Source of the DNA: a virus
IMG/VR virus record: IMGVR_UViG_3300007346_000136
Span: 1 to 30,306 of that record
Reading direction: 5' to 3' (one strand)
Length of the DNA stretch: 30,306 bases
The notes under the pieces are model-generated. The model saw nothing but the letters and a program-made list of their open reading frames with translations, searched no databases and was not told where the DNA came from. Below are positions 9,259-28,588 of the stretch, piece after piece; positions within the stretch are counted from its first letter, which is position 1; each line of letters opens with the position of its first letter. The position numbers and the translations under genes were made by a program.

Positions 9259-9570
9259 CTAAACACTCTTGCCAATCATGCCCTCTATGTATGACTTAGC
9301 GTGTTTGATATTGATAGCAGGCAGCACACCGTTCTTCATGTCTTCTTCAACGAGATACATGAATGCCTCAACTACCTTACGCTTAGCCTCGTTCATCACT
9401 TGACCGCGAAACCAAAGATGAACTGTGTTACGGGACACCTCTAATGCTTCGGCAACGTAGACGACAGGAAGGTTTGCCTCAACACATAAACGACCAAGCT
9501 GAACACCAAGAAGAGACGGATCACCTTCTTTCAACTTGACTAGTAACTTGGAACCATACGTGCGAGGCAT
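9259..9570 (-). CDS. Helix-turn-helix DNA-binding protein
   Basis: 103 residues. A helix-turn-helix is visible around residues 36-56: VYVAEALEVSRNTVHLWFRG, where the second helix SRNTVHLWF fits an XRE or Tnp-like recognition helix. A helical C-terminus follows (KVVEAFMYLVEEDM). It is likely a sequence-specific regulator or origin-binding accessory factor of the replication block; the target is unknown. It follows the zinc-containing protein at 9574 by 3 bases and is followed by the strong terminator at 9211, so it ends a transcription unit. No good Shine-Dalgarno is seen; translation may be coupled to the upstream gene. Confidence 0.75.
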   Translation of the reverse strand: MPRTYGSKLLVKLKEGDPSLLGVQLGRLCVEANLPVVYVAEALEVSRNTVHLWFRGQVMNEAKRKVVEAFMYLVEEDMKNGVLPAINIKHAKSYIEGMIGKSV

Positions 9571-10449: not shown

Positions 10450-10866
10450 TCACTTACTGGCTTTACGTACTGAAACACCGTACTCACGCATCACGTTAAC
10501 TCCGGGCGGCAACCCATCGTTCTCGTTTTCCCTCAAGAATTCTTTGAAATTACTCTGATGTATACGTCGCTCTAGCAACTGTACGGCTTCGTTGTCTAGA
10601 ACAAACTTATAAAAGTTATCCCAATCTTGGCAGAAGAACCGCTCGTTTAGCTTCCGCATCACGGTGCCGTGCCTAGTCTTTAGACTATCCGCGTTAACTG
10701 CGTTACACATATCAAGCATAACCATTTCTAGCTTAGCCATATCTTCTTTGAGCTTAGCGTCTGCTAGTTCGTATTCGTTACGCAATTTATCTCGCTCTGA
10801 CCGTATTAATAAATACGCTTCGACTAACTGATCTGTATCTCCAACTGAACTACTTGCATCACTCAT
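10450..10866 (-). CDS. Coiled-coil replication/recombination accessory protein, unknown function
   Basis: 138 residues from the ATG at 10866; a GTG one codon earlier is also possible. Residues 15-55 form a charged coiled coil (SERDKLRNEYELADAKLKED). The C-terminal half contains SLKTRHGTVMRK, WDNFYKFVLDNEAVQLLERR and LPPGVNVMREYGVSVRK. This layout (coil, 'K-T-x-x-G-T', W-containing helix, PPG-N) recalls Gp157-like or related small proteins found beside phage helicase and SSB genes, whose role is undefined. The start codon overlaps the helicase stop by 8 bases (ATGAGTGA), which suggests coupled translation with the SNF2 helicase and a shared job. Confidence 0.65.
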   Translation of the reverse strand: MSDASSSVGDTDQLVEAYLLIRSERDKLRNEYELADAKLKEDMAKLEMVMLDMCNAVNADSLKTRHGTVMRKLNERFFCQDWDNFYKFVLDNEAVQLLERRIHQSNFKEFLRENENDGLPPGVNVMREYGVSVRKASK

Positions 10867-18856: not shown

Positions 18857-19471
18857 CTATAATACGTCTTTAGCATTCTCCAAATATTTACTAACGCGAG
18901 GAAGCCTCAATTTTCTAAGCGCCTTCGCTTCAATCTGCCTTATACGTTCTATTGAAACACCCATATCTTCCCCGATCTCTGTTAACGTTTTCTCCTCACC
19001 TTCAATCCCAAAGTGAGCTTTGAGAACATGAATTTCTCTCTGCGTAAGTACACCCTCCATAGCAGCATTTAGTATTACGTCGGCTTGCTCTGAAGCAATT
19101 AACTTTATCGCAGCGTTATCCTGCATATCTTCAAGTCGGTTGTTCCAATTTTGTTCGGCGGCAATCTTGAGTACTTCTGATTCCGTTACATCTTTGTATC
19201 CTGTGTTAGTTCTCAACCTGACTGTCTTCTGTCTATCGCTGAACAAGTCATCAGGTAGAACATTTAAAACATCTGCCAAATCAAGTGCCGAATTTCGCCA
19301 AGTACCATCCTTGTTGATGGGAGATACTTTCATGTTAATTAAGTCACAAGTTTTACTAACGCTTAACCCATTAGCGCGGCACATAGGTAAGATATGTTTA
19401 TACCCTGCGGCCTCCATTGCTCGTCGAATACGGGCGTTTGATACACTAATTTTTACGCGATAATCACTCAT
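18857..19471 (-). CDS. XRE-type HTH fused to sigma-70 region 4 (phage transcription factor)
   Basis: 204 residues from the ATG at 19471, which overlaps the preceding stop as TGATG; an upstream start (19501) would lie within that small gene. Residues 10-80 form an XRE-like domain (ARIRRAMEAAGYKHILPMCR, LADVLNVLPDDLFSD). Residues 141-192 are a clear sigma-70 region 4: LTQREIHVLKAHFGIEGEE, LTEIGEDMGVSIERIRQIEA, KALRKLRLP, close to the -35-binding domain of housekeeping sigma factors. Region 2 is missing, so it cannot melt a promoter alone. It may redirect host RNA polymerase or bind phage -35 elements such as the two GGGAAC-type sites at 27021 and 28526; that link is inference. Confidence 0.85.
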   Translation of the reverse strand: MSDYRVKISVSNARIRRAMEAAGYKHILPMCRANGLSVSKTCDLINMKVSPINKDGTWRNSALDLADVLNVLPDDLFSDRQKTVRLRTNTGYKDVTESEVLKIAAEQNWNNRLEDMQDNAAIKLIASEQADVILNAAMEGVLTQREIHVLKAHFGIEGEEKTLTEIGEDMGVSIERIRQIEAKALRKLRLPRVSKYLENAKDVL

Positions 19472-19584
19472 CACCAATACTCCACGCCGCCGCGAGAGCA
19501 TCTATAATTAGGATTCGGAACCCACCGCCAGTCGTAGTCCTTACACGCCTTCCAACGTCTAATCAACTCTCTAATGGTATTCAT
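19471..19584 (-). CDS. 37-residue mini-protein coupled to the sigma-like gene
   Basis: A 37-codon frame beginning MNTIRELIRRWKACKDYDWR and ending in GGVEYW. Its ATG overlaps the stop of the 19581 gene (ATGA) and its TGA overlaps the ATG of the sigma-region-4 gene (TGATG). The aromatic-rich WRWVPNPNY and two cysteines look like a folded or binding peptide rather than random sequence. It may be a translational linker or a small modulator of the adjacent sigma-like protein; no function is known. Confidence 0.6.
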   Translation of the reverse strand: MNTIRELIRRWKACKDYDWRWVPNPNYRCSRGGVEYW

Positions 19585-20630: not shown

Positions 20631-20650
20631 AGCGTATTAGTTAATACGCT
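20631..20650 (-). repeat. 20-bp palindrome, copy A of nine
   Basis: AGCGTATTAGTTAATACGCT: perfect 9-base arms around GT. Its left half contains the stop of the gene at 20637-20981 (last residues K-R-I-N). Eight further copies, all to the right, are listed separately. Likely a protein-binding operator or an RNA hairpin at gene borders. Confidence 0.9.
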
Positions 20651-20981
20651 TGGTTCCTCGGAGTTCTTCTAATAGTTTCTCTGGCAATATCAACATGTAC
20701 TCCCCGCGTCCACACATCCATCCAATATCTTTTAGCTGTTCGGGCAATGGCAAGTTCGCATTGTTGAGCCACGTATCCCAGTCGAACACGTGGATGATGG
20801 CAAAGATAAATTTTAAATCCTCGGGCATCGTATCCAACGTGAACAACCGGAACTGCTGATGCGCTACGCACAACACGAACGTGTCATCCCCTGCTCTTTC
20901 AGCTACAACTTTGTACAGTGGTGGATCAGAATTTGACACTCTCACTGGCGAGTGCATGTTAAATTTATTTCGATAAGACAT
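20637..20981 (-). CDS. 114-residue hypothetical protein
   Basis: No family recognised. Compact mixed alpha/beta composition with many aromatics: DDTFVLCVAHQQFRLFTLD, FIFAIIHVFDWDTWL, MCGRGEYMLILPEKLLEEL. The start at 20981 overlaps the end of the upstream gene by 17 bases and has no clear ribosome site, so translation may be coupled; an internal Met at position 9 is an alternative. The last codons and stop are formed by palindrome A. Confidence 0.6.
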   Translation of the reverse strand: MSYRNKFNMHSPVRVSNSDPPLYKVVAERAGDDTFVLCVAHQQFRLFTLDTMPEDLKFIFAIIHVFDWDTWLNNANLPLPEQLKDIGWMCGRGEYMLILPEKLLEELRGTKRIN

Positions 20982-22008
20982 AGAACTTGCTCGTCAATGG
21001 GTCTGGACTCTCGTTCGCCATAGCGCAGCCCATCTCTTCCCAAAACCTACCATTGGACGGGAACATCTCATCAGAGTTTCGATGTGCCTTGAGCATCACC
21101 AAAGATAAGTCTACCTGTTGACGTATGTCGGCAGGGATATGTCCGTGCGACGGATACCACTTAAGCGGCATATCCCACTGTGCGTAGTTAAACTCGTTCG
21201 TGAACGGTAGATTCTGACCCGACCCATACTTGTCGATAGCCACCTGCATAGCATCGGTACGGATCGCGCCAAGTGTTACCCCGCCATTCATATTACTAAA
21301 GTAAACCCACTTCTCACCGCTGAACATCTCACGGCTACGGCTCAGTGCGTCAGCAAATTTATTTTTCTTATCAGTAAAACCTTTGTACATTTTATCGAAC
21401 GTGTGCCGTAAACGACTAGGCATTTCTGTGGCGGCAGCCTCCCCTGCAAAATGCAGAGCGAGATAATTACAAAGTTCAACTTCGTTTCTGTCTGAGATGT
21501 AGCTATCACCAAAAACTTTAGGTGACGATGTAAAGGTAGCCCCTGCGGTTACATCAATAAAACCATCCAACATCCCTCGTAGTAGATCACTAACGAACAC
21601 GTTGGCGCAGTTCAGTTTAGAATCAAACAAAGTCGCAGCCTCGTGGTTAGACTTAGGACCAAGTTTGGTCTGTAAATACTTAGGATTAGATGATGATATA
21701 AAATTGCCCAGATTACTGCCCCCGCTCAAGGGGTCGGAGTAAACACCGAAATCGAACCGACAGCCGTACCGTGTAGACAGACGCCCAACCTTCAAACCTT
21801 CAGGCGTGACAATCTCTACGCTATGAATATCGTTCGTTGCTTCAGCCCGTGTGATCATCCCCACACGGATAGACTTCTCTGATCTGTTATATAAATTGGC
21901 GAGGATGCCAAACAACGGCGACCTAATTAGATTTAATCTATCTTCTTGTGTTGTCTGTTCACCAAGAAAGATATCACTGATATTAAACTTAATGACTGAA
22001 CGTGCCAT
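20965..22008 (-). CDS. 347-residue hypothetical protein of the AAA+/VWA module
   Basis: Not recognised. Features: residues 60-95 look beta-rich (HSVEIVTPEGLKVGRLSTRY), GEAAATEMPSRLRHTFDKMY is helical, and GEKWVYFSNMNGGVTLGAIR looks like strands. The C-terminus has several Trp/Tyr (YAQWDMPLKWYPSHGHIPAD). No signal peptide, membrane helix or nucleotide-binding motif. The start has AGAGGTG and belongs to the GAGGTG start-site series (22008-26223). Placed after the VWA gene and two tiny genes, it could be a substrate or partner of the AAA+/VWA pair, but this rests only on position. Confidence 0.65.
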   Translation of the reverse strand: MARSVIKFNISDIFLGEQTTQEDRLNLIRSPLFGILANLYNRSEKSIRVGMITRAEATNDIHSVEIVTPEGLKVGRLSTRYGCRFDFGVYSDPLSGGSNLGNFISSSNPKYLQTKLGPKSNHEAATLFDSKLNCANVFVSDLLRGMLDGFIDVTAGATFTSSPKVFGDSYISDRNEVELCNYLALHFAGEAAATEMPSRLRHTFDKMYKGFTDKKNKFADALSRSREMFSGEKWVYFSNMNGGVTLGAIRTDAMQVAIDKYGSGQNLPFTNEFNYAQWDMPLKWYPSHGHIPADIRQQVDLSLVMLKAHRNSDEMFPSNGRFWEEMGCAMANESPDPLTSKFYVLSK

Positions 22009-22018
22009 ATCACACCTC

Positions 22019-22126
22019 TTAGATACTTAACCAAACTAATGCAGTCCCCACTGCGATCATACCGCCGTGGAATAAACCACGCCGATACACTCTACCCAAC
22101 AAATTATAAAATTCTTCCTGACTCAT
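22019..22126 (-). CDS. 35-residue single-pass membrane protein
   Basis: Start chosen at 22126 because AGAGGTGG precedes it at the right distance; longer readings in this frame overlap the SH3-like gene without a ribosome site. Sequence begins MSQEEFYNLLGRVYRRGLFH and ends in a hydrophobic stretch, GGMIAVGTALVWLSI, that could span or anchor in a membrane with the basic VYRR side in the cytoplasm. It overlaps the previous gene by 23 bases. Function unknown; a tiny membrane protein in this module is unusual. Confidence 0.55.
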   Translation of the reverse strand: MSQEEFYNLLGRVYRRGLFHGGMIAVGTALVWLSI

Positions 22127-22295
22127 CACCCACCTCTTGTAACTGATACTCGTATGCCCAATGACCATTGTCCAAGTCATACACGGGCTGACCATTCTTA
22201 TCCCCTTTGTCGATAATCTTTGCGGGTTGCGGGGCACGTGTACCCCACGACCCCGACCACATCACTTCTTGTCCTATCTCGTATTGATATTCCAT
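22104..22295 (-). CDS. 63-residue SH3-like small phage protein
   Basis: Starts MEYQYEIGQEVMWSGSWGTR; residues 3-52 (IGQEV ... PAKIIDKGDKNGQPVYDLDN ... YEYQLQEV) read as five short strands typical of SH3- or Tudor-like barrels found in many small phage proteins ('Y-x-[IV]-G-x-x-V', '[AP]-x-I-x-x-[KR]', 'Y-x-[VL]-x-x-G'). Strong ribosome site AAGGAGGTGTGAG before ATG, part of the GAGGTG series. Binding partner unknown. Confidence 0.65.
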   Translation of the reverse strand: MEYQYEIGQEVMWSGSWGTRAPQPAKIIDKGDKNGQPVYDLDNGHWAYEYQLQEVGDESGRIL

Positions 22296-22310
22296 CTCAC
22301 ACCTCCTTAC

Positions 22311-23555
22311 TTACGCTTTCATCACAACCTTTTGACCACGGGGCGGGGTAAAAGTTTCACGCCCACCTTCTTTGATGATCCAAATCGGGGGGATGTTTGT
22401 CTGCCACGTGATGTCACGCTCGACATAGCCATCCGTAAACACGATCATGCAGTCTGCGCTAAGATTGTTCTTAACGATGTAGTCACTGACGCATGAGGCT
22501 CTCGTACCTCCGCCGCCTTGGGGCTTGAACATCGACGCAAGGTTAGAGTAATTACCCTCGAACACTTGCTCGCCGTGTACCTCAATGTCCCACCACAACA
22601 CACGGATACGATCAGGCGGTAACGTATCGCACAGTTCTTGGACACGCGCCGTAACCTTAGCGATATCCTTGTCATCAATAGACCCTGATGTATCGATAGC
22701 CAAGATAACCTCACCAATCGTCTCGCTGATTGTGCTCGGCAAGTAATACCCGTCAGCCAAACGATTCTTGTTGAACCGCCGCCAAGTAAACTCATCTGTG
22801 CCACGCACGTTCGATGTCCAAAAGTCTTGTAACACCTCACGCCAATCGATGTCTGGCTCCATCAAGTCTTGGATGACACGGGGAATCTTCGCACCAAACT
22901 TACCCGCCAAGATACCGCCTTGGTGTATCGCCTCGTCGATCTGCTTACCCAACTCACCCAACTCGTCGGGCGTCATGCCTTGTACGTCGATGTCATCGTG
23001 TGAGTCAAAAGATTCTTGAGGACGCGAGTTACTAGGTCTACCCGGGTTGGAGTGTTCGCGTGGATCGTTATTATCTCCACCATCACCACCTTCTTCCTCG
23101 TCCTTCAAGTACTCATACACACGACGCACCGACCAATCACGAAACATCGGATCGTGGAAGCAATCTTTTGGCAGACTAATCAACGTCGGAACCTTCTCGC
23201 TCAACTGCACGATGATGTCATTCACCACGTAGTCCATAGCGATGTTGGCTAAGCGTCGATCTGTCTTCATCAAGTCACGGTGACGGGGAATGTGCTTGAG
23301 CAACACGTGTAAGTTCTCGTGCAGCACAACGCCTGCGATCTCCGTATCACTCAACTTGTCAAGAAAATCTCTGCCATAACGCTTGTTGTACCCGTCTGTA
23401 TACGCAGTCGGACACTTGGCAGGATCATCCACAATCGATGTCTCACCCATCAGGATCACACCACCATAGAGACAAGTCTCGGGGTGACGGATCAATTTGA
23501 CATTCGCTTTCTTCAAGCGAGTCTCAGCGTCAACTAATTTTTCAGCTAAGTTCAT
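22311..23555 (-). CDS. VWA domain protein with HExxH metallopeptidase-like N-terminus (CobT/DUF2201-like)
   Basis: 414 residues. N-terminal part: VVLHENLHVLLKH gives a zinc-protease HExxH (H79, E80, H83), followed by RLANIAMDYVVND. Residues 150-190 are an acidic, Gly/Asn/Ser-rich linker. The C-terminal von Willebrand A domain has a complete metal-binding (MIDAS) set: DTSGS (D288, S290, S292), GGGGTR with T351, and FTDG with D375. This order (putative metallopeptidase plus VWA-like) is that of DUF2201 proteins and of phage 'CobT'-named genes. It works, by family analogy, with the MoxR/CobS-like AAA+ ATPase encoded just upstream as an ATP-driven chaperone or protein-remodelling pair. The cellular target is unknown; no cobalamin genes are nearby. 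Start preceded by GAGGTG. Confidence 0.85.
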   Translation of the reverse strand: MNLAEKLVDAETRLKKANVKLIRHPETCLYGGVILMGETSIVDDPAKCPTAYTDGYNKRYGRDFLDKLSDTEIAGVVLHENLHVLLKHIPRHRDLMKTDRRLANIAMDYVVNDIIVQLSEKVPTLISLPKDCFHDPMFRDWSVRRVYEYLKDEEEGGDGGDNNDPREHSNPGRPSNSRPQESFDSHDDIDVQGMTPDELGELGKQIDEAIHQGGILAGKFGAKIPRVIQDLMEPDIDWREVLQDFWTSNVRGTDEFTWRRFNKNRLADGYYLPSTISETIGEVILAIDTSGSIDDKDIAKVTARVQELCDTLPPDRIRVLWWDIEVHGEQVFEGNYSNLASMFKPQGGGGTRASCVSDYIVKNNLSADCMIVFTDGYVERDITWQTNIPPIWIIKEGGRETFTPPRGQKVVMKA

Positions 23556-23566
23556 AACGCACCTCG

Positions 23567-24643
23567 TTAAACTAACAACGCAAGATTCTTAACAGCCCAG
23601 TCACGTAAGTCAGCATTGTTCTTCGCCAACTTGCACGTACGCTTGGACTCAAACGCCATCGAATAGAAGCACGACTGCACTTCCTCCGACCGTACTCTCT
23701 TCACAAACTTCATAAACTGAGACAGGTCATCCTGTGTCTCGATGGTATCCACCGCATTGAACATCATCAGAAACAACGCAGCGGGTTTCTCAGGTAGCTG
23801 CACAGTTTCAGGGTTAGCGATGACATCCGTAATACTCGTCAACTCTTTCTCCATCGACATAAAGGCAGAGATACCCTCAGCGAATGGCGCACCTGCCAGC
23901 CCAGCTAACGCAGCTTGCGTGACATAAGATCCCAACTTGTCACGGTTCTTGATGACCTCATCCGCGCCAACCAAAGATCGTGGTGTGACGAATGATGTGA
24001 TGGGCTTCGTCGGATTAAAGATATATGGGTTGTTCATCTGATCCCCGTCGAGATACGACGCGAGACTGCTCGGGTTCATCGCTACCCAAGCACGAACAAT
24101 ACGGGAGACACCATTATCTGTTGCCCACAGATTCCAACGCTTCGCATCGGGCTTACGAACATTGACCACACACAGACGATTAAGCACGTGCGCTGACATC
24201 GTATCGCCCACACCATCAGAGACGTTATTACCCGTTGCGAATACGATAGACCCAGCCGGTAACTTCACATCACCGACCGTTCGCTCCAACATCAGGCGAG
24301 TAAAGATAACCTGCAACAACTTGTTTGCCTTGGTGATCTCGTCAAGCATGATGACTTTGGGCTTCGGATCATGCAGACGGAATAGCTCGGACACATAAGA
24401 CTCCAACGCCTTAGTCTCGTGGTTCGGTATCCGCATCGTTACGTCGGACACATCCAATACAGGACAGTCTGCATAGATATAGTCATACCCATTACCTAAC
24501 ACTACCTGCAAATTCTTCAACACCGTTGACTTGCCAATGCCGGGTTCGCCACGCAGCATCACCGTTCGATGATGTCCAATCGTGGCAATCAAGTTCGGAA
24601 CGTCGTTCAGTTCCACTGCGTTATTAAAGTTAATCGTAGCCAT
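23567..24643 (-). CDS. MoxR/CobS-like AAA+ ATPase
   Basis: 358 residues. Walker A GEPGIGKST (32-40), Walker B KVIMLDEITKA (D101, E102), sensor 1 VFATGNN (134-140) and a likely arginine finger in HVLNRL (R156) define a complete AAA+ module; the C-terminal 150 residues are helical. The MoxR/CobS class usually partners a VWA protein, and the next gene encodes exactly that, 11 bases away. Phages of several groups carry 'cobS' homologues whose function is unsettled. The start has GAGGTGTGGT before ATG, directly after palindrome copy B. The phage probably uses the pair to remodel a host or virion complex; that is inference. Confidence 0.9.
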   Translation of the reverse strand: MATINFNNAVELNDVPNLIATIGHHRTVMLRGEPGIGKSTVLKNLQVVLGNGYDYIYADCPVLDVSDVTMRIPNHETKALESYVSELFRLHDPKPKVIMLDEITKANKLLQVIFTRLMLERTVGDVKLPAGSIVFATGNNVSDGVGDTMSAHVLNRLCVVNVRKPDAKRWNLWATDNGVSRIVRAWVAMNPSSLASYLDGDQMNNPYIFNPTKPITSFVTPRSLVGADEVIKNRDKLGSYVTQAALAGLAGAPFAEGISAFMSMEKELTSITDVIANPETVQLPEKPAALFLMMFNAVDTIETQDDLSQFMKFVKRVRSEEVQSCFYSMAFESKRTCKLAKNNADLRDWAVKNLALLV

Positions 24644-24654
24644 ACCACACCTCA

Positions 24655-24668
24655 GTATTAGTTAATAC
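24655..24668 (-). repeat. Palindrome copy B, upstream of the AAA+ gene
   Basis: Core GTATTAGTTAATAC, perfect 6-base arms; outer bases are degenerate on the left. On the leftward strand it is followed at once by GAGGTGTG and the ATG of the AAA+ gene (24643). Confidence 0.85.
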
Positions 24669-24670
24669 GC

Positions 24671-25576
24671 TCACACACCAAACTTGGACAGGATGTCGTC
24701 GATCTCTTCCTTCACCACGACACGCTTGGTGTCGGAGTTCCGTAGTTCCTCGACGCTCAACCCACTTAACACTTTCTCCAATGACGCACGTGCGTCCTCC
24801 AACTTAGAGTCATCCGTCAGATTAAACTTCCTAAATGTTTCACAGAGTTCCTTAGCTCGCTCCAACGTGGAGTCATAAAGTTTTCTACGACGCACCTTGA
24901 GTTCGCCGTTATCCCCCTGCACGACCTCCGTCTCGCAGCAATAACTGATTGACTTCATCACCTCAACCAACTGCTCGGACTGCTTGGACAGAATGTCCTC
25001 GACCATCCGCTTGGCTTGCCTGTTGTAGTGCTTCGCCATATCGTCCACCAATTCCTGCGCTATCTCGCATCGAAAGTCTCCCGTCGGAACCTCGGACTGC
25101 ACCAAGTTCACAGAGAATTTTCTACGTAACTCGGACACATCGGGATACTCACTCCGATCAAACATATCGCCCTGCACGAACGCCATATTCGCCACGATGG
25201 ACGGATACTTATTTAAGAAGTCATCCACCAACTCATTAAACTTCGCCTCGTGCTCGGCATACTCTTTATGGAAGCGAGCGAGATTGATGACAGGTAGTAG
25301 GCGTTGCGATCCCGCCCAGTCATACGTCGCTCGCTGCACCCAGTTATAGATCGTCTGGCGATAGTTCAGTACCGCCTTGTGCTCGTGGTTCTTAGCCAAA
25401 AGATTTTTCATAAACTTGCCTGAGTCTCGGTCAGCTTTCTTGGCAGCAGTCACCTCGTCGCTGATCTCTCGACTCGTCACCGTCGCGTTCCATACGTGCG
25501 ACTCGACCGACACCAACACACACGATGACGCAAGAGAAGTAATGTGTTGGGGCTTAGTTAATAAGTTCGTTTCCAT
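24671..25576 (-). CDS. DUF3150-like protein associated with AAA+/VWA pair
   Basis: 301 residues from the ATG at 25576; the in-frame GTG at 25588 lies in the ribosome site itself (GTGAGGTGTGAGATG). The protein is mostly helical: SLASSCVLVSVESHVWNATV near the start, then ISDEVTAAKKADRDSGKFMK, a Trp-containing middle (YNWVQRATYDWAGSQRLLP) and a charged coiled-coil C-terminus. The layout resembles DUF3150, a family found next to CobS-type ATPases in phages and bacteria; its function is unknown. Gene order DUF3150, AAA+, VWA suggests one complex. The assignment is from memory of the family pattern and needs a profile search. Confidence 0.62.
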   Translation of the reverse strand: METNLLTKPQHITSLASSCVLVSVESHVWNATVTSREISDEVTAAKKADRDSGKFMKNLLAKNHEHKAVLNYRQTIYNWVQRATYDWAGSQRLLPVINLARFHKEYAEHEAKFNELVDDFLNKYPSIVANMAFVQGDMFDRSEYPDVSELRRKFSVNLVQSEVPTGDFRCEIAQELVDDMAKHYNRQAKRMVEDILSKQSEQLVEVMKSISYCCETEVVQGDNGELKVRRRKLYDSTLERAKELCETFRKFNLTDDSKLEDARASLEKVLSGLSVEELRNSDTKRVVVKEEIDDILSKFGV

Positions 25577-25589
25577 CTCACACCTCACA

Positions 25590-25603
25590 GTATTATTTAA
25601 TAC
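25590..25603 (-). repeat. Palindrome copy C, upstream of the DUF3150-like gene
   Basis: Core GTATTATTTAATAC, arms as in the other copies but centre TT. It encodes the end (K-R-I-K, stop) of the 56-residue gene and is followed on the leftward strand by TGTGAGGTGTGAG and the ATG at 25576. Confidence 0.85.
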
Positions 25604-25763
25604 GCTTGTTTAGTTTCTCGATCCGTTCCTGCAAATACCTACGCCAAGCATCTTCGGCTATACATTTAGACCCGATCTCTCGGCGTAAGTTCCGCAGTTC
25701 CTTCAACTTTTCTTCACTTTTTTTGAGTTCCTTGGACAGGTTCTCAATGTTGTCCTCGATCAT
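25593..25763 (-). CDS. 56-residue coiled-coil protein
   Basis: An open frame too short for a 60-codon cut-off: starts MIEDNIENLSKELKKSEEKL and continues as an uninterrupted charged helix to QERIEKLNKRIK. Its ATG overlaps the stop of the 84-residue gene as ATGA. Heptad-like Leu/Ile spacing suggests it dimerises or binds another coiled coil, perhaps the DUF3150-like neighbour (inference). Its last codons and stop are formed by palindrome C. Confidence 0.7.
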   Translation of the reverse strand: MIEDNIENLSKELKKSEEKLKELRNLRREIGSKCIAEDAWRRYLQERIEKLNKRIK

Positions 25764-26014
25764 CTCTCGTCCTCGTACTCCGGATCATCGTCCACACCGA
25801 ACGCATACCCGTACTCTTCGACCAACTCTTCCATCGAAAAGTTCTCGAACCCCTTGAACCCGCCACGTAAGTAACTGTCCAACACGTTCGTGTCTTGGTA
25901 GTGCATCTCATTACGTAAGTAGTGGATCGACTCATCCACCAACGCATCGATCAATTCCTCCCGTGTCATCTCGTTAACGGGTTTGATCTCTCGGATAAAA
26001 ACAAAACTGCTCAT
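25760..26014 (-). CDS. 84-residue acidic hypothetical protein
   Basis: Begins MSSFVFIREIKPVNEMTREE. Helical and acidic (LIDALVDESIHYLRNEMHYQ; FSMEELVEEYGYAFGVDDDP). No domain recognised. GGAGGTGAAGTT precedes the ATG, immediately following palindrome copy D, and the ATG overlaps the previous stop as ATGA. Its strong negative charge could mimic DNA, as anti-restriction proteins do, but nothing more specific supports that. Confidence 0.65.
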   Translation of the reverse strand: MSSFVFIREIKPVNEMTREELIDALVDESIHYLRNEMHYQDTNVLDSYLRGGFKGFENFSMEELVEEYGYAFGVDDDPEYEDER

Positions 26015-26223
26015 AACTTCACCTCCGTATTAGTTAATACGCCACACGCCTCGATGAATCGGTCTCGATCAAAGCGTGGGTTTGTCCGCTCCAACGCATT
26101 GGCAACGTGCCGCGCAGTCAGTCGATGCTGATCGGCATACTTGTCCTGCGACTCCAAACTGCCCGACTGAATGAGCGACCCGTAGATCGCTCGCGCTATC
26201 AACTCGTAATCTTTTCTACTCAT
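26011..26223 (-). CDS. 70-residue small phage protein
   Basis: Start placed at the ATG at 26223, 7 bases after GAGGTG; an in-frame GTG at 26232 is within that site. Sequence: MSRKDYELIARAIYGSLIQS at the N-terminus, then ADQHRLTARHVANALERTNP. This 'MSRKDYELIA-x-A' type of small helical protein recurs in phage early regions; function unknown. Its C-terminus, GVLTNTEVKL, is largely encoded by palindrome D, so the repeat has been absorbed into the reading frame. Confidence 0.68.
   Translation of the reverse strand: MSRKDYELIARAIYGSLIQSGSLESQDKYADQHRLTARHVANALERTNPRFDRDRFIEACGVLTNTEVKL
26026..26041 (-). repeat. Palindrome copy D
   Basis: CGTATTAGTTAATACG, 7-base arms around GT. It encodes V-L-T-N-T near the end of the 26011 gene and on the leftward strand runs straight into the GGAGGTG ribosome site of the 26014 gene. 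Confidence 0.9.
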
Positions 26224-26228
26224 CACAC

Positions 26229-26420
26229 TCACCTCGCTACTTTGTTAAGACACAGCAATAAATTCTTATCCGACACCACCACATAGTTCGACTTGTGCAT
26301 CGGCACGATGGTGTGCCGTACTTTTCTCGCATCGTCCTCGCCACAACGTAGGCAGGTTACGTATCCCGCCTCGTGCCGCTTGGTTGCGACCTCTTCTATC
26401 TGACACTTCACGCAATACAT
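26229..26420 (-). CDS. 63-residue zinc-ribbon protein
   Basis: Two CxxC knuckles, C3-x2-C6 and C23-x2-C26, make a zinc ribbon. The rest, RKVRHTIVPMHKSNYVVVSD, recalls a common small phage zinc protein with 'HT-x-VP-x-HKSNY'. It may bind nucleic acid or a host protein; role unknown. It is the first gene of the leftward operon after the long non-coding region. A GGAG lies about 9 bases upstream of the ATG. Confidence 0.75.
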   Translation of the reverse strand: MYCVKCQIEEVATKRHEAGYVTCLRCGEDDARKVRHTIVPMHKSNYVVVSDKNLLLCLNKVAR

Positions 26421-26429
26421 AGTTCACGC

Positions 26430-26930
26430 TCCGTTGGCCAAACCTCGACTGAAAATAAATACTCATCGCCTAATGGAATAAACACTCACGCAGGGTCGGG
26501 GTTACCAACCCTGCTAGGCTGCTCACTCGTTCATCACGGCTCACAACTTTGTAGGCAGATACTCGGGCACGGGGAATCCCGTCTTTGCCCTACCGCTGCC
26601 GGATGTACATTGCCCATCCGTATCGGCTGTGGGTTGCGTTACCTAGAACGTTCGGGAATCACATAGCGAGTAGGCTTGTCAGCGCGGTTTCTAATTAGCG
26701 TATTAGTTAATACGCTCGCGCCCCGTTGCCATCTTTTGCACTCGCCCCGTCGTTCGACTTGTCGTGCAGCAACCCTGTAGCGTTGGGGAAGTACGTTCCC
26801 GAGTCACGCTCACTCGTCACCCTTGATATGGGGACACCGTACCTTGCCATCGGTACGTCGCGGCTCTACCCACCGCGCCTTCGACCACTACCGGCTTTCG
26901 GCTTGTGGTATCGGAGACTGACTGAAACAC
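26430..26930 (-). ncRNA. Candidate large structured RNA or operon leader
   Basis: No convincing gene here, but many GC-rich hairpins (+ strand coordinates): 26490-26496/26508-26514 (7 bp); 26565-26568/26587-26590 enclosing 26569-26573/26578-26582; 26600-26605/26615-26620 (6 bp); 26786-26790/26796-26800; 26800-26804/26812-26816; 26838-26843/26852-26857 (6 bp); 26859-26863/26873-26877; 26884-26888/26905-26909. Two halves share motifs: GCTCACTCGT at 26521 and 26808, CAACCCTG at 26506 and 26770. The leftward strand is proposed because the promoter-like element at 27000-27028 would transcribe into it and the next leftward gene follows. I do not recognise a known class; GOLLD or ROOL-like phage RNAs are analogues in style only. 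Confidence 0.45.
26697..26716 (-). repeat. Palindrome copy E, inside the structured region
   Basis: AGCGTATTAGTTAATACGCT, perfect 9-base arms, identical to copy A. It separates the two hairpin-rich halves of the candidate RNA region. Confidence 0.9.
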
Positions 26931-26946
26931 CGTATTAGTTAATACG
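26931..26946 (-). repeat. Palindrome copy F
   Basis: CGTATTAGTTAATACG, at the right-hand edge of the structured region and about 50 bases downstream (leftward) of the promoter-like element at 27000-27028, a fitting place for an operator or a 5' hairpin. Confidence 0.9.
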
Positions 26947-26999
26947 CTTGGCTTGATCCTGTTTGGCTCGCGCCGTGCGTTTCTGTCCGTCCTATATAT

Positions 27000-27028
27000 T
27001 TAGACAAGTCAAATCCGTATTAGTTCCC
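27000..27028 (-). promoter_or_regulatory. Promoter-like bipartite element, copy 1 (GGGAACTA / CTTGTCTAA)
   Basis: On the leftward strand GGGAACTA (27028-27021), 12 bases, CTTGTCTAA (27008-27000), then an AT-rich ATATAT. Copy 2 at 28505-28533 has both boxes identical and exactly the same spacing. Taking GGGAAC as -35 and TCTAA as part of the -10 gives a spacer of about 17-18 bases. GGAAC/TCTRA-type boxes are typical of ECF sigma promoters rather than sigma-70. Bases 27016-27025 also contain half of the 20-bp palindrome, so a repressor could overlap the -35. Confidence 0.55.
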
Positions 27029-27033
27029 TTGTA

Positions 27034-27061
27034 TTGATAGATTTTTGATGTTTTTTATGAT
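27034..27061 (+). promoter_or_regulatory. Possible rightward sigma-70 promoter
   Basis: TTGATA (27034-27039), 16 bases, TATGAT (27056-27061): each box differs from consensus at one base. No gene follows rightward for over 1.7 kb, so it may drive an RNA across the iteron region (origin transcription) or be chance in an AT-rich stretch. Confidence 0.3.
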
Positions 27062-27126
27062 GTTTATCATTCGCGGTAGCCGGCTTTTGCAACTCGGTAA
27101 AAGCTGCGTCATTCTTGGATGTTTTC

Positions 27127-27142
27127 CGTATTAGTTAATACG
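27127..27142 (-). repeat. Palindrome copy G, beside the iteron array
   Basis: CGTATTAGTTAATACG, 7-base arms around GT, 19 bases before the first TGTTCC iteron. Confidence 0.9.
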
Positions 27143-27160
27143 CTTGGATGCACAAAAGTT

Positions 27161-27566
27161 TGTTCCATTTGTTCCACGTGTTCCAACAGGTGCGATTGGG
27201 ATTATGGAACAAGGTTCGGGATGGTCGATGTTGGGGGTGGAATCGCAAGTCGTTGATTTTGCTAGGTGTCGTGTTCCGTAGTAGGTCTTATTATTATTAT
27301 TATTTTTATAAAAATATATATATGTAGAGGTTTTGTTCCAATGTTCCAAGGTTTTAGATAATGACTTCCCTGAGCCTGACTTTGTGGGCGGGAGAGAAGC
27401 ACTGCGTGACCCCCCTCATCCTGACTGATCCTCGCCCAGACTCTGCATACTATTTTGGAACATTGGAACAAATGGAACAAAACATCACTTTTCCCAGCAG
27501 AATCAAATACTTATCTTGTTCCAACGTCAAAGAATTCCTTGGAACAAAACCGAACTTTTTGGAACA
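27161..27566. other. Candidate replication origin: 13 TGTTCC/GGAACA iterons around an AT-rich tract
   Basis: TGTTCC starts at 27161, 27170, 27179, 27272, 27334, 27342 and 27517; its complement GGAACA starts at 27206, 27457, 27465, 27474, 27541 and 27561. The first three are exactly 9 bases apart. TTTGTTCCAATGTTCCAA near 27332 is matched in inverted order by TTGGAACATTGGAACAAA at 27455. Between the clusters, 27288-27325 is an almost pure A/T tract, suited to strand opening. No gene is visible here. Clustered short iterons plus an AT tract is the usual look of a replication origin; a regulator-binding array is the alternative. Confidence 0.6.
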
Positions 27567-27600
27567 AACTTTTTCTTGACAGGTCAAAAACCTTCATTTA

Positions 27601-27718
27601 GTCTTGCGTAGCAAGACCTCGCGGAAAGAATTCAGCCCTCGCCCGCACCCAACTAGAACTGGCTTCGCTCAAGAATAACTGGCATCACCCAATAGAACTG
27701 GTCTCGCGGAGCGAGACC
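27601..27718. other. Two tight hairpins and a three-copy ACTGG motif
   Basis: GTCTTGC-GTA-GCAAGAC (27601-27617, 7-bp stem) and GGTCTCGC-GGA-GCGAGACC (27700-27718, 8-bp stem) share a design: long stem, three-base loop. Between them AACTGGC/T occurs three times (about 27656, 27677, 27696), at 19-21-base spacing. Neither hairpin is followed by a T-run on either strand. They may be DNA-binding or cruciform sites next to the iterons. Confidence 0.5.
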
Positions 27719-27745
27719 GAATCGAGCGAGATCGACCGCGCACAG

Positions 27746-27777
27746 AAAAGCCCCACCCCGATTGCTCGGGGCAGGGC
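27746..27777 (-). terminator. Rho-independent terminator after the 27806 gene
   Basis: Leftward strand: GCCC outer and CCCCG inner stem (27774-27777, 27767-27771) pair with CGGGG and GGGC (27756-27760, 27750-27753) around a 6-base loop, followed by TTTT (27749-27746). It lies about 30 bases beyond the stop at 27806 and makes that gene a separate unit. Confidence 0.8.
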
Positions 27778-27780
27778 GTG

Positions 27781-27798
27781 GCGTATTAAGTAATACGC
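27781..27798 (-). repeat. Palindrome copy H, between stop codon and terminator
   Basis: GCGTATTAAGTAATACGC, perfect 8-base arms; centre AG instead of GT. Lies between the stop of the 27806 gene and its terminator. Confidence 0.9.
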
Positions 27799-27805
27799 TG
27801 TCGGG

Positions 27806-28456
27806 TTACTTAGTGGCGATTGGCTTGCCTTGCGAGACGTAGGGACGCGCCGCCTTAACAAGAGCATCTAACCCGTTAAGTAAGGCGAGCGCACCTGTCG
27901 GGTTTTTCTCGGACAGAATCTGCAGCGCCTCAGTGACTAGCGCGAGCGTACCTGTCGGGTCGGGTAGGGTTTCAGACTTAGTGGCGCCGTCTCCCGCCTC
28001 AGGCGCATCGCTAGCGCGTGGGATCAGTTTGGTTACATTCTGTCGAAATGCGACCCGCACATAGTCTTGCGCCGCCTTGCGGATTTTCGCGCCGTTGAAC
28101 GATAGCAATTCTTTTGCCGCCTTGTTGTCCATCGCCCACGTATCATAATTAAAGTCTTCCGGATGGGTCTCGGCACTCACCGCCACTGGCTCTACAGTCT
28201 TGTCATCGGACAGGCGCACAAGGCGCGGCGCGTTGAAATAAGCCTGCGCGAAAATAGCGCGCGCCTCAGTATCGAACGCGACCCACTCAGCAGACTTGGT
28301 AACCTTGTCGATCTCCGCTTGTGTCGTATCCACCTCAAACAGTAGCGGGACAGTGCAGCGCAAGTCAGCGTAGGCTTGAGCCTGTGAGATTCCACCCGTC
28401 GCGATGGTGTTCAGGTTGGCGAGAATGATGTTGTAAATTTCGGTCTGGTTGTTCAT
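27806..28456 (-). CDS. 216-residue hypothetical protein with own promoter and terminator
   Basis: Not recognised. Mostly helical: MNNQTEIYNIILANLNTIAT, then ARAIFAQAYFNAPRLVRLSD, AAKELLSFNGAKIRKAAQDY. The C-terminus contains a 19-residue duplication (DPTGTLALVTEALQ / NPTGALALLNGLDA). The DNA looks more GC-rich than its neighbours. It is flanked by a promoter-like element (28505-28533), palindromes H and I, and a terminator, so it is a stand-alone leftward unit inside the control region. That placement is typical of an early-expressed host-takeover gene or a cargo gene (inference). The protein has no cysteine-rich, membrane or signal features. Confidence 0.7.
   Translation of the reverse strand: MNNQTEIYNIILANLNTIATGGISQAQAYADLRCTVPLLFEVDTTQAEIDKVTKSAEWVAFDTEARAIFAQAYFNAPRLVRLSDDKTVEPVAVSAETHPEDFNYDTWAMDNKAAKELLSFNGAKIRKAAQDYVRVAFRQNVTKLIPRASDAPEAGDGATKSETLPDPTGTLALVTEALQILSEKNPTGALALLNGLDALVKAARPYVSQGKPIATK
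27885..27960 (-). repeat. 57-bp in-frame internal duplication
   Basis: GCGAGCG[CT]ACCTGTCGGGT occurs at 27885-27903 and 27942-27960, 57 bases apart, i.e. 19 codons. It encodes the repeated [DN]PTG[TA]LAL segment of the 216-residue protein. Confidence 0.75.
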
Positions 28457-28504
28457 CTTTTCGATCCTCAGTTAGCGGCGCGGGTTTGCGCCGGTTTCAT
28501 AGAA

Positions 28505-28533
28505 TTAGACAAGGCGGGTTTCCGATAGTTCCC
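28505..28533 (-). promoter_or_regulatory. Promoter-like bipartite element, copy 2
   Basis: Leftward strand: GGGAACTA (28533-28526), 12 bases, CTTGTCTAA (28513-28505), then TTCTATGAAACCGG, which also resembles the bases after copy 1. The ATG of the 216-residue gene lies about 50 bases further on, so this is a well-placed promoter. Conservation of both boxes and the spacing between two otherwise different sequences is the main evidence. Confidence 0.6.
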
Positions 28534-28568
28534 AATATTTAAAACTTTTTTAGTGGTATTTTCGCTAC

Positions 28569-28588
28569 AGCGTATTAGCTAATACGCT
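28569..28588 (-). repeat. Palindrome copy I, perfect 20-bp dyad
   Basis: AGCGTATTAGCTAATACGCT. Unlike the others it is fully self-complementary through the centre (TAGCTA). It lies about 36 bases upstream of promoter-like copy 2 (leftward) and some 230 bases before the terminase genes (rightward), so it could act on both. Confidence 0.9.

Follow-up and report, generated by a model that had tools for sequence, protein, structure and literature searches.

What does a short palindrome do that recurs at gene borders along one part of a phage genome, and which protein, if any, reads it? These questions are raised by the window analysed here, the 30.3-kb virus record IMGVR_UViG_3300007346_000136, which comes from an uncultured freshwater phage. 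From the comparison of sequences, the palindrome probably serves as an operator, present in multiple copies, for a DNA-binding regulator that the phage itself encodes and whose specificity diversifies, and gene g33 is the candidate for that regulator. An operator for a phage regulator was among the functions offered in a preliminary description of this DNA, and it is this function that gains support, from the switching of palindrome class together with g33.

Palindrome copies in the window

Perfect GTATTANNTAATAC cores, with constant arms and a variable 2-bp centre, were found at positions 20634, 24655, 25590, 26027, 26700, 26932, 27128, 27783 and 28572. These are the nine copies of the preliminary description, and its half copy near 27016 was also recovered. 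With up to three mismatches allowed, the 20-mer had no match in 100 dinucleotide shuffles (nine copies versus none expected by chance). The features of the region are as follows, sites A to I being given without strand.

Site A, 20631-20650: AGCGTATTAGTTAATACGCT, overlapping the stop codon of g23 and the codons just ahead of it, before g22
Leftward genes g23 to g32, 20637-26420, minus strand: bearing sites A to D, with g26, g27, g28 and g32 among them
Site B, 24652-24671: between g28 and g27, 12 nt before the g27 ATG; slot kept in relatives
Site C, 25587-25606: before g28, directly 5' of the g28 ribosome site; slot kept in relatives
Site D, 26024-26043: before g30, within the 3' end of the overlapping g31 reading frame
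Site E, 26697-26716: non-coding control region
Site F, 26929-26948: non-coding control region, just 5' of a structured RNA
Half site, 27014-27025, plus strand: TCCGTATTAGTT, family D3
Site G, 27125-27144: non-coding control region
Terminator-like hairpin after g33, 27750-27777, minus strand: 12 pairs and a T tail
Site H, 27780-27799: between the g33 stop and the g33 terminator; slot conserved in the clade
g33, 27806-28456, minus strand: 216 aa, proposed cognate DNA-binding regulator, co-switching with palindrome class and flanked by sites H and I
Site I, 28569-28588: upstream of g33, between g33 and the divergent g34 operon

The placement of sites A to I agrees with the earlier view that copies lie at gene ends, between genes or in the control region. 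Sites B, C and D, described as standing just before a ribosome site and ATG, are indeed 12-14 nt ahead of an ATG preceded by a Shine-Dalgarno sequence (SD). The slot of site A, at the g22/g23 junction, is kept in nearly all relatives having that stretch, and g34 is preceded by a palindrome site at 235-600 bp in nearly all of the palindrome classes described below. Among the leftward genes, g26 encodes a DUF2201/VWA protein, g27 an AAA ATPase, g28 a protein of unknown function and g32 a zinc-finger-like protein. Palindrome sites were absent from the late genes examined, and a sigma-70 promoter scan gave sites no more numerous than in shuffles.

The first 20.6 kb had been said to contain no comparable copy. 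One 20-mer match with three mismatches does occur there, at 10800-10819, in the g6 codons for EAYLLIR. We rejected it as a member of the family because it lies in conserved g6 codons, under coding constraint, and is shared by relatives from all the close palindrome classes. The original statement therefore holds. Here in g6, close relatives of all palindrome classes retain GCGTAT N6 ATACGC at synonymous positions, among them the Ile codon ATA, and it is possibly an unrelated DNA element.

The same palindrome in relatives

Using the motif alone, at least 119 stretches were gathered from IMG/VR, and at least 56 of these share two or more encoded proteins with the window and belong to the same phage clade. 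The palindrome thus recurs in related contigs, and it does so in conserved slots. These are the g22/g23 junction, the stretches before g26, g27, g28 and g32, several places in the control region, and two positions next to g33, one immediately behind the gene and one about 110 bp ahead of it. Among the matches listed, a single contig has as many as 11 copies, and in mapped contigs the copies lie between g22 and g34, including the g28-g32 interval, which carries sites and is variable in gene content. Across these genomes protein identity falls to 32-85% while the palindrome arms and slots stay fixed.

The 87 non-redundant sites from the relatives have invariant arms, an unconstrained centre and flanks that are almost uninformative beyond about 3 bp, confirming outside the window what had been noticed within it, namely that arms are kept while centres vary. 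An SD and start codon follow within 34 nt in 34 of the 87 sites, versus 9.3 in shuffles, the site being mostly 11-14 nt before the start. The centre of GTATTA-class sites, when read in the sense of transcription, is AC in 31 cases versus GT in 5, and CC in 15 versus GG in 3. This bias relative to transcription is unexpected for a symmetric DNA site and is not accounted for by one.

Allowing mismatches raised the number of sites to 142, and the core GTATT/AATAC was unchanged in all variants with one or two mismatches. Only the outermost or innermost arm base was altered, on one side, barring one variant in which both outer bases were changed and were non-complementary. Co-variation of the arms across relatives, which had been raised as a possibility, was consequently not seen, compensatory changes numbering zero among the 142 sites.

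Nothing similar to the site region emerged from megablast on 50,697 phage records, and in the phage collection neither tblastn with g28 and g34 nor searches with three slot proteins found relatives. A 7.3-kb contig in a Rhodocyclaceae MAG (L319) encodes a g34 relative (57%) and is possibly a mis-binned phage contig; it is the only hint of a host and too weak for naming one.

Other palindromes in the same slots

A search with g4 gave relatives that mostly share 70-87% identity with the window in their backbone proteins and do not carry this palindrome. The preliminary description had considered relatives that share the genes and lack palindromes. The absence of this palindrome was borne out, but an absence of palindromes was not: in several of these close relatives the slots are occupied by a different palindrome built along similar lines. 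The alternative palindromes were found by de novo dyad counting, and a g34 search then added further classes, giving a total of about 13. Those from the g4 search are GCCATTA NN TAATGGC (8 copies), CGTATCA NN TGATACG (7), CCTTACAA NN TTGTAAGG (6) and TTCCAC N6 GTGGAA (4-5), and those from the g34 search are CGTGTCT NN, CGTGTTA NN, CCTAAC N4, TCCTGAC N3, CCTATC N5, TGCGTTAG N4, GTGACGC and TTCTGACA N3; TTCCACCC NN is another alternative palindrome in the same slots.

The alternative palindromes have 4-9 copies each with enrichment down to 1e-33, and classes with two or three copies (CGTGTTA, GTTACA, GTTTCA) are tentative. In some classes the centre is 0-3 bp. The copies include sites several kb from g33, and sites as far away as 8 kb switch along with it. 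A stray site of a foreign class beside the phage's own class was seen in only one of 35 compared phages.

g33 as the candidate cognate regulator

We compared the proteins of the g33 slot across 35 phages, with g34 as the backbone control. At g34 similarity of 0.9-1.0, the mean slot-protein similarity was 0.71 (minimum 0.44) for same-class pairs (n=36) and 0.09 (maximum 0.25) for different-class pairs (n=24). The observed partial statistic was reached by 0 of 5000 label permutations across the 35 phages, a figure that overstates certainty because pairs share ancestry. On the g34 tree there are at least 14 class changes (minimum possible 12), many classes being single-member, and a single origin of the GTATTA class is marginally disfavoured, not rejected (p 0.053). 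Palindromes and slot protein were both present in 27 cases and both absent in 6, with 5 mixed (p 5e-4).

Leave-one-class-out profile searches placed the slot proteins of six classes in one family, one per genome, the best member of each left-out class being found at E 3e-25 to 6e-6. The slot proteins of the TTCCAC, TCCTGA and GTGACG classes have no homology to g33 detectable by sequence. However, the model of the TTCCAC slot protein (low confidence, pLDDT 63.8) repeats the element order of the g33 AlphaFold2 model (pLDDT 84.6): a helix, a beta hairpin, short helices, a long helix, a linker and C-terminal helices. For g33 we found no Pfam or PHROG family, no helix-turn-helix (HTH) or DNA-binding fold of another kind that could be recognised, and no structural match of high confidence; Foldseek, BFVD and VIA-align on two slot models gave nothing above the expectation for helical proteins (best Z 6.4). 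A basic helix, residues 120-146 of the window's g33, is near-invariant within class and different between classes. GTATTA-class proteins share an almost unchanging long helix, IRKAxQxYVRVxxxQN (about residues 125-140), whose counterpart is IRRGIQKYIDTGVKQS in CCATTA-class and IWAAVLAFGRTKLQRV in GTATCA-class proteins. We propose that this long helix reads the DNA, and GCGTATTANNTAATACGC is the predicted specific target of the g33 protein.

In the gene sets of G001, G010 and the window, no other protein-coding gene follows the class in all same-class genomes. The remaining class-linked candidates are translations of conserved non-coding DNA or occur in some genomes only; the class-linked small ORFs of the control region were rejected as genes, since they lie in conserved non-coding DNA. 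The HTH proteins encoded in the window, which had been put forward for binding assays, are unlikely to be the binders. The XRE-type g4 is 72-76% identical in relatives with a different palindrome and was rejected because it does not change with the palindrome, and g21 (HTH and DUF3310) was rejected because its HTH varies inside one palindrome class. Encoded at 9259-9570, g4 is a small protein that is 51-82% conserved through the wider clade.

Neighbouring RNA, origin-like region and other genes

A structured RNA lies at 26806-26913 on the minus strand, between sites E and F. It has four hairpins, with compensatory double changes in 17 of 26 pairs and 99.3% of cells paired. It is present in phages of the GTATTA, CCATTA and TCCTGA classes and was not found in the other palindrome classes searched. 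Rfam gave no match anywhere in the window, this RNA included, and it seems to represent a new family of phage RNAs. Another conserved stretch of non-coding DNA, at 26440-26700 on the minus strand, has a better fold than its shuffles (z -3.46) and shares 83% identity with the CCATTA-class record G036 over 178 bases. Perhaps the two belong to one long RNA that site E interrupts.

At 27159-27570, TTTGTTCCA / TGGAACAAA boxes form an inverted array around an AT-rich tract. The boxes are matched in relatives of several palindrome classes, and the region looks like a replication origin. Elsewhere, the DUF2201 metallopeptidase/VWA protein, the AAA ATPase and g28, a highly conserved 305-aa protein, are a fixed set in the clade (window 22311-25588), and a protein with a sigma-70 region 4 domain (18857-19501) is rare among the related contigs examined (L016, G059).

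Alternative explanations

The palindromes might be bound by a host factor or by another phage protein, with g33 merely hitch-hiking with the control region. This is unlikely in our view, even though g33 has no known DNA-binding fold, two sites adjoin it, and the structural part, with genes that the window lacks, is absent from several same-class genomes. A host factor shared by these phages would leave about 13 different palindromes at the same slots unaccounted for, sites up to 8 kb off switch with g33, and in the G001, G010 and window gene sets no second protein-coding gene tracks the class throughout. That g33 adjoins sites H and I also counts against an operator, as local recombination could link them, but this objection is weakened because distant sites switch too. 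We regard it as improbable that the palindromes are small RNA hairpins before the ribosome site, through which a protein or an RNase controls translation. The sites are often directly ahead of the SD, the full 20-mer folds at -7.6 kcal/mol and the centres are biased relative to transcription. However, compensatory changes are lacking, the outer pair being broken on one side only, while the true RNA nearby has plenty of covariation; some classes have centres of 0-3 bp, and the folding of copies beside an SD is no better than that of shuffles (z +0.39, -0.66 and +0.27). A DNA dyad fits better because of this lack of compensatory changes and of any folding gain, and the translation-controlling hairpin of the preliminary description is left unsupported.

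Partition or incompatibility (centromere-like) sites, or origin elements, are a very improbable reading: the clustering beside the origin-like repeat region and the resemblance of class-specific sites to plasmid incompatibility would suit it, but no ParA family match was found in 20 related records, the sites reach gene starts kilobases away, and the origin-like repeats do not track palindrome class. Finally, mobile or recombination boundary repeats at gene gains, also among the first suggestions, are hardly credible. The variable-content g28-g32 interval does carry sites, but the arms are invariant, the flanks are unrelated and a longer repeat unit is absent, the slots are unchanged across diverged genomes, and the switch to another palindrome is genome-wide. 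No positive support for them emerged.

Comparison with known phage systems

Cluster A mycobacteriophages such as L5 and Bxb1 have many short repressor sites, the stoperators, in intergenic spaces, and the site motif and the immunity repressor differ between related phages in correlation (PMC6550527, PMC9283540). Here too, motif and putative cognate protein diverge together. However, stoperators are 13-bp, asymmetric, oriented sites bound by a monomer with an HTH and a stoperator domain, and the phages that bear them have an integrase or parABS, whereas the sites described here are palindromic, g33 has no recognised fold, and neither integrase nor ParA was detected: PF00589 and PF13614 were absent in 20 related records, all possibly incomplete. 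The system works most like the cluster A stoperators but is not a member, given its palindromic sites and the absence of detected lysogeny genes; we would place it among distributed, co-evolving phage operators as a new form.

The preliminary description called the palindromes ESAS-like. The SAS and ESAS of cluster K are repeats tied to the translation starts of a subset of genes, the SAS an asymmetric 13-mer and the ESAS imperfect 17-bp repeats upstream with a variable spacer of mostly 4-13 bp (PMC3203893). The association with translation starts is a likeness, but the palindrome has perfect arms, a fixed 2-bp spacer and no second element. Neither the 13-bp SAS nor the imperfect 17-bp ESAS repeats are present, and the comparison stands as an analogy only. 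In ParB/parS partition a ParA-family ATPase is encoded with the sites, whereas PF13614 had no match in the 20 possibly incomplete records.

The temperate Streptomyces phage phiC31 has conserved inverted repeats bound by the characterised phiC31 repressor, and in phage P1, also temperate, operators are bound by the likewise characterised C1 repressor. In both, as proposed here, the operators of one phage repressor are repeated around the genome, a likeness by description only.

A proposed multi-copy operator

The palindrome sites, their constraint, their slots, their class switching and their link to g33 are observations, and on these we base the following model. A dimer of the g33 product would read both arms, GCGTATTA on each side of the 2-bp spacer. 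Bound sites would mark three places: the region of the g33 promoter, the control region and, among the leftward genes, the starts of g22 to g30. The g33 protein would regulate itself, via site I, and the leftward region, because sites lie upstream of g33, in the control region and before leftward starts. Binding would most likely lower transcription, both by acting at promoters and by forming a roadblock shortly ahead of start codons; by analogy with the stoperators, such roadblock repression is the likeliest action (PMC6550527, PMC9283540), although activation is also possible. Each palindrome class would control its own genome only, because protein and sites change together between phages, and this may result in class-specific exclusion between co-infecting relatives. 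Classical prophage immunity is unsupported because no integrase or ParA family was found in the 20 related records.

About 13 natural pairs of palindrome and candidate binder occur in one phage clade without a cultured member in the collections searched, and the code from protein helix to DNA site is therefore directly testable. The results also suggest that operator specificity, whose evolution has mostly been followed in temperate phages, may evolve where lysogeny genes are not detected. It is possible, though we hold it doubtful, that these phages, which have no detectable lysogeny module, use a rapidly diversifying pair of operator and regulator, the regulator coming from a DNA-binding protein family with a new fold, to silence or exclude co-infecting relatives of the same class. 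If true, this would be immunity specificity without lysogeny.
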